45,957 nucleotides of DNA from Bacillota bacterium (lineage in GTDB: Bacteria; Bacillota; Clostridia; Peptostreptococcales; Anaerovoracaceae), in contig JAQXQE010000016.1 in assembly GCA_029101005.1 (NCBI GenBank), positions 1-45,957 of the forward strand, read 5' to 3'. Shown here in pieces: positions 13,779-45,941 of the stretch. Both the position numbers and the translations under genes were made by a program. The notes beneath the pieces are model-generated. The model saw only the letters and a program-made list of their open reading frames with translations, was not told where the DNA came from and made no database searches. Numbering within the stretch: the first letter of the stretch is position 1; each line of letters begins with the position of its first letter.

Positions 13779-13811
13779 ACCGTTCTCCTCCTTTTTTGCC
13801 TATAATAAAAA

Positions 13812-13951
13812 CCCTTAGGCGGTTTGCAGCACGTAGAGGCTTATCTGCAACACATAGAGTTAACCGCTTATTGCTGCTTCCTCTCGGACCTGACAAGGTT
13901 CACGGCACCCTATTGCGCAGGACCCCTACGTACTGCAAGCCGTCTAAAGGC
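13812..13951 (-). ncRNA. ffs: Signal recognition particle RNA (short, Alu-less type)
   Basis: The minus strand contains the hallmark of SRP RNA domain IV (GTCAGGTCCG, then AGAGGAAGCAGC), which binds Ffh. The 5' end from about 13951 pairs with the 3' end near 13812 over about 25 bp with several G-U pairs, closing one long rod of about 140 nt. A TTTTT run follows the 3' end. No Alu-like 5' domain is present. It lies upstream of dnaX, as in many Firmicutes. Confidence 0.93.
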
Positions 13952-13958
13952 AAGTGCT

Positions 13959-13987
13959 ATTATACCATAAGCTACGCAATGTAGCAA
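13959..13987 (-). promoter_or_regulatory. Promoter of the SRP RNA gene
   Basis: TTGCTA (13987-13982), 17 bases, then a perfect TATAAT (13964-13959) on the minus strand. The start would fall at 13951-13952, exactly where the RNA's closing helix begins. It lies just downstream of the rplQ terminator and may also feed dnaX. Confidence 0.85.
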
Positions 13988-13992
13988 AGAAA

Positions 13993-34317: not shown

Positions 34318-34911
34318 CTATTCCATCACCTCCCCCGTCTCCTCATCAATCAGCAGAGTCGGCTCCACGTTCTCCATTTCCTCGCTGTCCACAGCTTCGC
34401 ACTCTACTACTTCGGTCTCTGCCACTCTGGTCTCTGCTACTTCGGTATCTGCCACCTCAGAAATTGGCACCTCTGACTCAAACTCCAGTCCACCTGATGC
34501 ATTCTCATAGTTCAATCCAAGCTGGCTGTACTCAGTATCCGCATTGCCCATCACCTCGTCTGCATCGACCATAGCTTCTTCCATTGTCTGCGCCTTCTTC
34601 TCGGCCATCGCTCTCTGGCGTTCCTCTTCTCTCGCAGCAAGCTTATTCATTCTTCCCTGGAGCCAATCAGCAATCATCTCCGCCGCGCAGCGCGCCTCGT
34701 CCTCGTGAAGAGTAATTCCACGCGACATATGCTCATGCTCAGGATCCCAATCTCTTATATCGAACTTCGGCGCGCCCTCATTCCATGCAACAATATTTAC
34801 TTCCTTCCTCCACCCTGTCTGATATTCAGTGATTACACCGATATGCGATGTGATAGAGAAAGCGATTTCTCCGTTTCCATTGTTTCTACCTTTTCTATAA
34901 CCACCACTCAT
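34318..34911 (-). CDS. PC4/YdbC-like ssDNA-binding protein with acidic repeat tail
   Basis: A protein of 197 residues from the ATG at 34911, with an AAGGAGGT site. Residues 15-85 match the bacterial YdbC/PC4 fold (IAFSITSHIGVITEYQTGWR, then KEVNIVAWNEGAPKFDIRDW and HMSRGITLHEDEA). These are dimeric single-stranded nucleic-acid-binding proteins. Residues 86-115 are a charged helix (REEERQRAMAEKKA). Residues 120-197 are acidic, with a small repeat VADTEV, VAETRV, VAETEV. The frame continues upstream to 35034, but this has no better ribosome site. The adhesin gene begins at the next base. Why a ssDNA-binding protein is coupled to an adhesin is unknown. Confidence 0.82.
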   Translation of the reverse strand: MSGGYRKGRNNGNGEIAFSITSHIGVITEYQTGWRKEVNIVAWNEGAPKFDIRDWDPEHEHMSRGITLHEDEARCAAEMIADWLQGRMNKLAAREEERQRAMAEKKAQTMEEAMVDADEVMGNADTEYSQLGLNYENASGGLEFESEVPISEVADTEVAETRVAETEVVECEAVDSEEMENVEPTLLIDEETGEVME

Positions 34912-35152
34912 AATGATCTTTACCTCCTTGTCAGCCTTTCGGCGTATTTCTTCTATATTCAGGAAGCGCAGCACCATTGCCGGCACTCTGTTTCTCTTTT
35001 GTTGAAGATTCGTGCTGCACTTCTCACATTGCAATCTTACTGTTGGCTTCTTTCGCCCTCAAACAACAGAGTCACCCATTCCGACATTCCAGTCACTTTG
35101 CAATTCGTATTGATTTGCTTCGTTTCGTCTGCCTTTCAGAGGCCGAACTAGT

Positions 35153-35512
35153 GCCGTATCACGAAATTGTGTATGAAATCGCTGAACACCTTGATGTTTG
35201 AGCATTTTGGACACAATCCAAAAAACGTGTATCAGCCGTTTTGGACCAGAAGGGCTCTTCCTGAACGGTCCGAAGCTCGAAAAATGTCGATATTTGGCGA
35301 TAGTCGTCGGCGGAATCCGACGAGAGGAGGTTGCGCCAATCAACCAAGTGCAAATCCAGTGCGAATCAGCGGAGTTATGGAAGAATCATTGTGTACACGG
35401 CTTTCAATTTCCAACGGTTTGCGGGAATTTATACACAATTTCGTGATACGGCTTTTTTGCATTGTGTACACGCGGTCGAAATATCAAGGGGTTGCGCGAA
35501 TTTGGACACAAT
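35153..35512. repeat. Intergenic palindromic element, copy 1 (upstream of pyrC)
   Basis: A non-coding element of about 360 bp. Reading left to right: a 13-bp tail and a 52-bp imperfect palindrome in minus orientation (35166-35217, ATTGTGT...ACACAAT); a 170-bp centre that opens with CGTGTATCAGCCG and holds AATGTCGA at offset 65; a 52-bp palindrome in plus orientation (35388-35439); a 21-bp linker (35440-35460: TTCGTGATACGGC, six T, GC); and another 52-bp palindrome (35461-35512). The second copy is at 44246-44592 with the same spacing. Frames in the two copies do not stay in register across the centre, so it is not coding. Confidence 0.8.
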
Positions 35513-35688
35513 CAGCGCGCGAAGGCTCTCATTCGATACGTGGCGTAACACAATCAGCGCGCGAAGACTCCCAATCGATACGTGGCGTAGCACAATCAGC
35601 GCGCGGAGACTCGCAATCGATACGTGGCGTAGCACAATCAGCGCGCGAAGACTCTCAATCGATACGTGGCGTAGCACAATCAGCGCGC
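35507..35688. repeat. 42-bp tandem repeat array (4.3 units)
   Basis: Four full units start at 35507, 35549, 35591 and 35633, and a partial one starts at 35675. Each begins CACAATCAGCGCGCG and ends TCGATACGTGGCGTAG, with only 1-5 differences between units. The array begins inside the last six bases of the palindromic element. It is GC-rich and free of stops in several frames, since 42 is a multiple of three. This gives false open frames on both strands. Confidence 0.92.
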
Positions 35689-44221: not shown

Positions 44222-44245
44222 TACCTCGCTGCCTATCCAACACTA

Positions 44246-44592
44246 GCTGTTTTGCGATTTTGTGGTTAGAATTGCTGTACCCCTTGATCTTTATAAATTT
44301 GACCACGCACTCAAAAAAGTGTATCAGACTTTTTCGGCTTTCAAGAGGCAATTTAGCTACCAATCTGCACTTCCTAATGTCGAAATTTGTCGTATTTTTG
44401 CGATATTTGTAAGTTCCCAAGCCTATACAAGCTCTTTATCAGCCAATTTCGCCTTCTCTCGCCCAATCCCAACAAATTCTCTGTGGTCAAATTTCTTATT
44501 ATCAATGCTTTGCTGGATTCTATCCACAATTTCGTGATACAGCTTTTTTGCGTTGTGGTCAGCACCACTAATTCAGCCTCACTGACCACAAT
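44246..44592. repeat. Intergenic palindromic element, copy 2 (downstream of pyrI)
   Basis: The homologue of 35153-35512 with the same order and spacing: a 13-bp tail and a 52-bp palindrome in minus orientation (44259-44310), a 168-bp centre with GTGTATCAG at its start and AATGTCGA at offset 65, a 52-bp palindrome in plus orientation (44479-44530), a 21-bp linker (44531-44551) differing from copy 1 at one base, and a 41-bp palindrome (44552-44592). The outer stems here read TGTGG/CCACA where copy 1 has TGTGT/ACACA. A C-rich, G-poor flank continues to about 44700, as in copy 1. Confidence 0.8.
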
Positions 44593-44700
44593 CACCGTCA
44601 CCTCAGCGCAAACTCTACCCCAAACACTCCCAACCTACGCGCAACGGACAATCCGCTCAAACTCCGCCTCAAACCATCCCCAACCAAATCTCACACAAAA

Positions 44701-44747: not shown

Positions 44748-45941
44748 TTACTCGATGATCTCTGTTACTACGCCTGAACCTACTGTTCTTCCGCCCTCTC
44801 TGATAGCGAATCTCAGTCCTTCCTCGATAGCGATTGGTGTGATCAGTGAGATCTCCATTACTACGTTATCTCCAGGCATGCACATCTCTGTTCCTGCTGG
44901 AAGCTGGAGATCACCTGTTACGTCTGTTGTTCTGAAGTAGAACTGTGGTCTGTATCCGTTGAAGAATGGTGTGTGTCTTCCACCCTCCTCCTTCTTCAGT
45001 ACGTATACCTGACCCTTGAACTTTGTGTGTGGGTTGATTGTGCCAGGCTTGCAGAGAACCTGTCCTCTCTCGATCTCTGTTCTCTGTACTCCTCTGAGAA
45101 GTGCTCCGATGTTGTCTCCTGTCTCTGCCTCGTCAAGAGTCTTCTTGAACATCTCAACTCCTGTGCAGACAACCTTTCTCTTCTCCTCTGTAAGTCCTAC
45201 GATTTCTACCTCGTCACCTACCTTGAGCATTCCTCTCTCTACTCTTCCTGTAGCTACTGTTCCTCTTCCTGTGATTGAGAATACGTCCTCTACTGGCATG
45301 AGGAATGGCTGGTCGTTTGCTCTCTCTGGCTCTGGGATGTATGCATCTACTGCCTCCATGAGCTCTACTACCTTCTCAGCCCACTCGCCGTTTGGATCCT
45401 CGAGTGCCTTCAGTGCTGATCCTCTTACGATTGGTGTGTCATCGCCAGGGAACTCGTACTCGTCAAGAAGCTCTCTTACTTCCATCTCTACGAGATCGAG
45501 AAGCTCCTCGTCGTCTACCATGTCGCACTTGTTAAGGAATACGATGATGTATGGTACGCCTACCTGTCTTGAAAGCAGGATGTGCTCTCTTGTCTGTGGC
45601 ATTGGTCCATCTGTTGCTGCACATACGAGGATAGCTCCGTCCATCTGTGCTGCTCCTGTGATCATGTTCTTTACATAGTCAGCGTGACCTGGGCAGTCTA
45701 CGTGTGCGTAGTGTCTGTTTGGTGTCTCGTACTCAACGTGTGCTGTTGAGATCGTGATTCCTCTTGCCTTCTCTTCTGGCGCCTTGTCAATCTGATCGAA
45801 TGCTACGTTTCCACCAAGACCGTACTTTGCGTGAAGTACGCTTGTGATTGCAGCTGTCAGAGTTGTCTTACCATGGTCAACGTGTCCGATTGTACCAATG
45901 TTAATATGTGGCTTGGTTCTCTCATACTTCTGCTTAGCCAT
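44748..45941 (-). CDS. tuf: Elongation factor Tu
   Basis: A protein of 397 residues that brings aminoacyl-tRNA to the ribosome. G1 is GHVDHGKT at 19-26, G3 is DCPGH near 81, and G4 is NKCD near 136. Domains 2 and 3 follow in normal order and the end is [14 protein letters not shown]. It has an AGGAGGAAAC site. fusA and rpsG, its usual upstream neighbours, would lie beyond the window end. Its promoter is not in view. Confidence 0.98.

Follow-up and report, generated by a model that had tools for sequence, protein, structure and literature searches.

The window analysed here is a stretch of 45,957 nt on contig C16 of the source genome (G000; 1.6 Mb in 27 contigs). Inspection of the sequence together with repeat search located two copies of a compound element in it, C16a and C16b. 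A copy runs from a reversed module (M') through a variable centre to a module M1, a 21-bp linker and a module M2. The features are listed below, with bit scores from a covariance model of the module, R1.

35151..35515, plus strand: whole element, copy 1 (C16a; from sequence and genome search)
35167..35215, minus strand: module M' of C16a, a reversed 49-bp palindrome with core (51.8 bits)
35220..35235, plus strand: inner A-tract and CTGTATCAG-like box beside M' of C16a
35238..35387, no strand assigned: variable centre of C16a, whose length varies between copies by about whole helical turns
35390..35438, plus strand: module M1 of C16a (45.2 bits)
35440..35460, plus strand: 21-bp linker of C16a (TTCGTGATACGGC-T6-GC; from sequence)
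35463..35511, plus strand: module M2 of C16a (45.8 bits)
35507..35688, no strand assigned: 42-bp tandem array of 4.3 copies, beginning within the end of C16a M2
44244..44595, plus strand: whole element, copy 2 (C16b), past the 3' end of tuf (44748–45941, minus strand)
44260..44307, minus strand: module M' of C16b (56.4 bits)
44482..44529, plus strand: module M1 of C16b (52.4 bits)
44554..44591, plus strand: third module of C16b, with its arms kept and a shorter inner part (20.2 bits on both strands)

An earlier reading of the sequence alone had described the palindromic modules, the linker, and the second locus with its short third module, and all of these were recovered; the inverted arms of C16a are at 35153–35217 and 35388–35452, with 170 nt between them. 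The five full modules of the window score 45.2–56.4 bits under R1 (E 1.6e-11 to 4.7e-15), values that speak for consistency and are not independent proof, since all five are among the 36 sequences on which R1 was trained. Beside M', five A-tract columns and five box columns are invariant across 12 aligned copies from the source genome, and this segment is lost from one copy, C7a. A gene for a PC4-domain protein (34318–35034, minus strand) adjoins C16a, and its relative in Candidatus Crickella caballi, a second carrier described below, also stands beside an element. Elsewhere in the window, Rfam places a bacterial large SRP RNA gene at 13794–13989 (minus strand).

A dispersed family in three genomes

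The element had been taken to be present twice, a count that proved too low: DNA and pattern searches demonstrated a family of 15 dispersed elements in the source genome, two of them within the window, that share an architecture of one reversed and usually two forward palindromic modules of ~49 bp. R1 was built from 36 of the 44 modules of this genome, after removal of two short variants and of the six modules carried by a pair of near-duplicate copies. At E≤0.05 it returned 47 matches, five of which are the opposite strand of sites already counted, and all 42 distinct sites lie inside the 15 elements; the scan scored 150 of the 584 first-look candidates, so that an isolated and very weak module may have escaped it. 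Three third modules are not among the 42: those of C16b and C25, which are shortened, and that of C7a, which is unrecognisable. The anchor noted in the centre of both window copies is not general, as AATGTCGA is exact in 4 of the 15 centres (C16a, C16b and the near-duplicates C23d and C25) and the motif ATGTCGA is present in 7. The alternation between GTGT/ACAC and GTGG/CCAC arms is real, with 6 and 28 of the 36 modules respectively, and is a mark of sub-lineages; the covariation that it had been thought to signal is mostly whole-arm replacement.

Plain DNA similarity revealed no relative among 59 other genomes. Applied to the 47 genomes of the genus, R1 gave 10 matches in one rich carrier, G060, and one or two weak ones each in G023 and G010. 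The rich carrier is C. caballi (Anaerovoracaceae), a sister species of the source, in which DNA search and terminal-repeat mapping located 22 loci. Of these, E20, E22 and E21 (the last at the end of a contig) are partial, and E13 has two modules. A combined model, R2, was made from 50 modules (24 from the source genome and 26 from C. caballi). It matches 4 of the 47 genus genomes at E≤0.05, the source included, with one weak match each in G063 and G016. At stricter cut-offs it matches 3 of 393 genomes of the order and 3 of 349 of the family, the source again included in both; these overlapping genome sets were scanned under strict filters, with 15–17 candidates scored per genome in the order and family scans, so that absence elsewhere is provisional. 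The third carrier, G341, belongs to another genus of the same family and has eight measurable two-module elements, a locus cut by a contig end (C54) and one 24-base match found by DNA search with its own element. The proposed search of the genome and its relatives thus yielded 15 elements in the source, 22 loci in C. caballi and at least 8 in G341.

Certain copies look degraded, namely E20 and E22 in C. caballi and C7a in the source genome. At the third-module position of C7a (C7:44915–45190) lie additional palindromes of divergent sequence (GTGTACA..TGTACGC as well as GTGTAC..GTACAC), which may represent a composite or a decayed second element. Two of the weakly matching genomes hold something else: G010 has a different array of four short GTGGACAAA..TTTGTCCAC-like hairpins downstream of a gene (L091, ~1380–1600), and G063 a single core motif, TTTCAAGGGTTTGAGCGATTT, without clear paired arms (L172, ~1470–1545). 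DNA searches of phages and plasmids with two elements gave no match. A pattern scan of viral sequences gave none for the window linker; with a 17-mer taken from the end of the C. caballi element it hit five stretches, in which no module scored at E≤1. Among the papers listed by our literature searches, none was recognised as describing such an element, which is no proof that none is in print.

The neighbouring genes that we annotated, a part of the total, are ordinary (pyrC, pyrB, tuf, purC, dapB). Of the C. caballi elements with both neighbours called, 14 of 18 are placed between convergent genes, a position held by 10 of 54 control gaps (p = 1e-5); the counts in the source genome are 4 of 13 and 6 of 45 (p = 0.21, not significant); these are simple open-reading-frame picks, with element neighbours taken from 70–75 aa up and control genes from 110 aa up. 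In G341, 2 of the 7 elements with both neighbours are so placed. Tandem repeats stand beside 6 of 15 elements in the source genome against 2 of 45 control gaps (p = 0.002), and beside 7 of 22 elements in C. caballi, where 11 of 54 control gaps have them (p = 0.37). One position is convincingly orthologous between the two species, and it is the sole one: C16a and E21 share related PC4-domain genes (45% identity over 134 aa) and a syntenic block including ribosomal L3, L4 and S10, with M' facing the PC4-domain gene in both. By our estimate about one coincident position would be expected by chance, and the shared position hints at vertical inheritance. For E04/C7a, E06/C20a and E09/C14 the common gene is merely nearby or of weak identity.

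Conservation, spacing and the module core

Modules and spacers have diverged to very different extents in C. caballi. Across 10 of its 22 elements, aligned modules are 87–93% identical and the two spacers 50% and 42%; between nearest neighbours the values are 93–95% for modules and 64% and 56% for spacers. Decay of a known insertion sequence, which the sequence-only reading had named as one outcome that would overturn it, does not fit this pattern. In the source genome (12 of 15 elements aligned) the left module block is 71%, the right 63% and the centre 36% identical, the modules being less conserved than in C. caballi.

Distances between modules are fixed to a degree that spacer sequence is not. 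Spacer 2 of C. caballi is exactly 54 bp in all 10 aligned elements. In its three-module elements M1 and M2 start 106 bp apart in 17 of 18 cases, and M' and M1 104–107 bp apart in 17 of 18, the exception being 95 bp in each; these counts leave aside two extra overlapping pattern matches (E06, E17). In the source genome the M1–M2 spacing is 72–74 bp in 13 elements, and the M'–M1 distance falls into steps: 200, 212, 212, 221, 221, 221, 222, 223, 223, 232, 232, 232 and 234 bp (13 of 15 elements, two near-duplicates dropped). These distances are periodic at 10.6–10.7 bp with R = 0.88, which none of 100,000 uniform draws reached; one draw did so at 10.5 bp and four at 10.0 bp. The peak is broad (R ≥ 0.85 from 10.2 to 11.1 bp, 0.82 at 10.0 bp), and with one value per length class, classes that share descent, p is 0.013. 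Nearest centres often differ by 9–11 or 21–22 bp in length, the number of independent length steps being uncertain because identities between the closest centres are barely above the shuffled 66%. Element lengths in G341 (217, 218, 218, 218, 248, 248, 249 and 260 bp) are likewise periodic, with p = 0.00014 for the eight values and 0.08 for their three classes; several spacers there contain, by eye, hairpin-plus-T-run stretches that look like local terminators. The claim of a fixed geometry under selection is supported, and spacing is near whole helical turns in three genomes. Because spacings stay near integer turns while spacer sequence is free, what is selected seems to be an assembly of protein on double-stranded DNA, in line with paired protein sites, one of the options raised earlier.

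The modules of the three genomes differ in their arms and have a core, TCAA-N4-TT, in common. Those of C. caballi read TTGGAAT...ATTCCAA across 49 bp (50 in one), those of the source genome are TTGTGGTTA...TAACCACAA-like across 49–50 bp, and those of G341 are TTTTTTTCTTA...TAAGAAAAAAA-like. C24 and A25 occur in every one of 50 modules aligned, A26 and T31 in 49, T23 in 47 and G28 in 46. This core fits most of the IHF consensus WATCAANNNNTTR, as it is given in extracts of PMC7177045, although the final R fits just 19 of the 50 modules and the conserved G28 falls outside the consensus.

At least eight of the nine consensus positions (R allowed at position 6) agree in 11 of 36 modules of the source genome and 30 of 56 of C. 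caballi, against 8.5% and 13.5% for shuffled sequence. The best match lies on the module's own strand in every case (36/36 and 56/56), at a single place in 53 of the 56 C. caballi modules and at two adjacent places in 27 of the 36 from the source; in G341, five of eight right-hand modules have it at the core. The resemblance to an IHF-type bend consensus means that a DNABII protein could fold the module, and we treat the IHF/HU reading of the core as a lead drawn from consensus fit. IHF itself is rare outside the proteobacteria. An HU gene lies at L127 9002–9271 (minus strand), ~1.4 kb from element C23a.

Transposition, single-stranded DNA and RNA as alternatives

The best explanation for the family, which we hold to be probable if well short of certain, is that its members are dispersed, non-coding elements on which proteins dock to form an assembly with double-stranded DNA. 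The alternative that survives best is a family of miniature inverted-repeat transposable elements (MITEs), whose terminal and internal modules would be transposase sites phased for a synaptic complex and moved in trans by a transposase encoded elsewhere; we judge it unlikely. Of the 19 two-ended elements of C. caballi, 17 have terminal inverted repeats that pair across 21 bp with one mismatch or none, and in 8 the pairing is perfect, which suggests a MITE-like origin. Copies are intergenic, dispersed and patchily distributed, the arms are specific to each family of elements, and one recent pair of copies, from two loci of the source genome, agrees in 375 of 382 bases. Elements of G341 have terminal inverted repeats too; in the family of the window, the outer box of the left end is missing from the right end.

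Other observations count against this reading. No target duplication was found in C. caballi: direct repeats of at least 3 bp are absent from the ends of all 19 elements, and 2-bp end matches occur in 4 of 19, as for shuffled partners (mean 4.2). Recent duplicates extend beyond the element, on both sides for C16a/C23d, by ~40 bp on the left for E13/E15, and on both sides up to the contig end for C16b/C25. No longer, gene-bearing copy and no autonomous parent was seen; an exact 20-mer of the terminal repeat found 17 stretches in the genome contig collection, all from C. caballi and at most partly read for genes. Modules also stay intact while spacers drift. E13 (L139 12530–12706) resembles E15 (L142 7756–8038) minus one module period of 106 bp; their flanks differ further left of the common ~40 bp, and both contigs stop 18 bases past the element. 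In E15 and E16 the middle module is reversed if end modules are typed by sequence, and modules may recombine or slip.

Far less probable is a REPIN or REP-type element whose hairpin ends a RAYT (Y1 transposase) would process in single-stranded form. Conserved inverted ends at fixed spacing around a spacer recall REPINs, as they are described in extracts of PMC3116915, and in C. caballi an open frame of 252 aa matches Y1 weakly (51 bits), which we take as RAYT-like. The sole Y1 match of the source genome, however, is strong (138 bits) and reads as IS200-type; G341 has two strong ones. The proposed link to a RAYT gene failed when tested: a pattern scan of these four Y1 loci with flanks of up to 1.5 kb, which covered the arms of the source and C. 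caballi types and not those of G341, found no module or core of either type. Many modules are able to fold as hairpins, yet the stems show no wobble preference, with 30 cells of A:C-type mismatch against 21 of G:T type in the source genome, and helical phasing is unexpected for single-stranded substrates.

Least probable of all, and rejected as the main constraint, is a folded non-coding RNA that would contain conserved hairpins and a terminator, even though C16a (35153–35459) folds far better than its shuffles (z −7.4) and stem covariation exceeds the shuffled value both in the 36 modules of the source genome (0.218 against 0.151) and in the two species together (0.421 against 0.185), with none of 500 shuffles as high in either test. 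The opposite strand folds as well (z −5.8), as expected of any inverted repeat, and the two-species signal is mainly one whole-arm replacement between species. The covariance model that had been proposed as a check does find modules, but the C. caballi elements show no covarying helix beyond a column-shuffle null. The RNAalifold covariation term is +0.1 there and merely −1.1 on 12 copies from the source genome, despite double changes somewhere in 12 of 38 pairs in those copies. A:C mismatches are tolerated in the stems, and the A/T run of the linker lies on one strand or the other depending on the copy of the source genome, so that it makes no terminator tail. Rfam gave nothing at the window element above its gathering score, and at E≤1 on four loci it gave one sub-threshold match, at a G341 locus (27.4 against a 100-bit cut-off, E 0.003). 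The absence of a match to any named family has stood, in that we could assign the elements to none of those tested.

A proposed docking element and its nearest relatives

Under the docking explanation, each ~49-bp module would consist of two inverted half-sites, the arms, held about four helical turns apart around the asymmetric core. A DNABII (HU/IHF-like) protein at the IHF-like core would fold the module into a U-turn, joining the half-sites for a sequence-specific dimer. Two or three such modules, an approximately integer number of turns apart and on one face of the helix, could then be gathered into a single looped or wrapped complex, with spacers that merely set distance and phase. The family, its architecture, the contrast in conservation within C. 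caballi and the fixed, helically periodic spacing are what we observed; binding to the double strand, the bend and the joint complex are what we infer. As a guess at its role, each copy may be maintained as a functional cis site at the ends of genes that insulates its neighbours topologically or transcriptionally; as a guess at its origin, the lineage may have started as a MITE- or REPIN-like repeat, the specificity of a putative cognate protein having changed between species. Some observations run against docking: the presence in 3 of 349 family genomes is oddly patchy for a host function, the bias towards convergent genes falls short of significance in the source genome and is not seen in G341, the modules of the source genome are the less conserved, and certain copies look degraded. 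More speculative, and in our view doubtful, is the proposal that the family represents a new class of chromosomal site, in which helically phased bent palindromes would serve as gene boundaries or insulators and the specificity of the cognate protein would have changed in step with all copies of a genome, giving three arm types in a single bacterial family.

Small intergenic repeats are usually taken for decaying mobile DNA or RNA hairpins, and the present family illustrates that covariation of palindrome arms by itself can mislead towards RNA. Turn-quantised spacing that is independent of spacer sequence, in three genomes with three arm types, looks like the genomic signature of a protein complex on dispersed sites, and the family offers a testable route to a putative DNA-organising or recombining protein.

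Several known systems share parts of this design. Phage Mu, Tn7 and lambda attP combine multiple recombinase sites with bending sites in a fixed geometry; the multi-site geometry is alike, and in the present family no copy seen has a recombinase gene or cargo. BIME, RIB and RIP mosaics consist of palindromes alternating in orientation, with IHF sites, at gene ends; they resemble the present elements, with their IHF-like cores, in these respects and differ in taxon and module design, and no linked RAYT was found here. REPINs and REP-RAYT systems, according to extracts of PMC3116915, are short and intergenic, with inverted, conserved, lineage-specific ends at a fixed distance, whereas the elements described here have degeneracy of a double-stranded DNA type, two or three internally palindromic ~49-bp modules and helical quantisation, again with no linked RAYT found. 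Correia (NEMIS) elements of Neisseria, as portrayed in extracts of PMC2229807, have terminal inverted repeats, and their 155-bp form has an IHF site and is almost exclusively intergenic. The terminal repeats of C. caballi elements and the IHF-like core resemble these features; the Neisseria elements are short, with one IHF site and target duplications, while in the present family no duplication was found and each of two or three phased modules has its own IHF-like core. Judged by these descriptions, the interspersed mosaic elements of this family come closest to REPINs and Correia elements, and they are best read as a REPIN/MITE-like mosaic that would serve as a docking platform with several phased sites, in which every module may have an IHF/HU-type bend.
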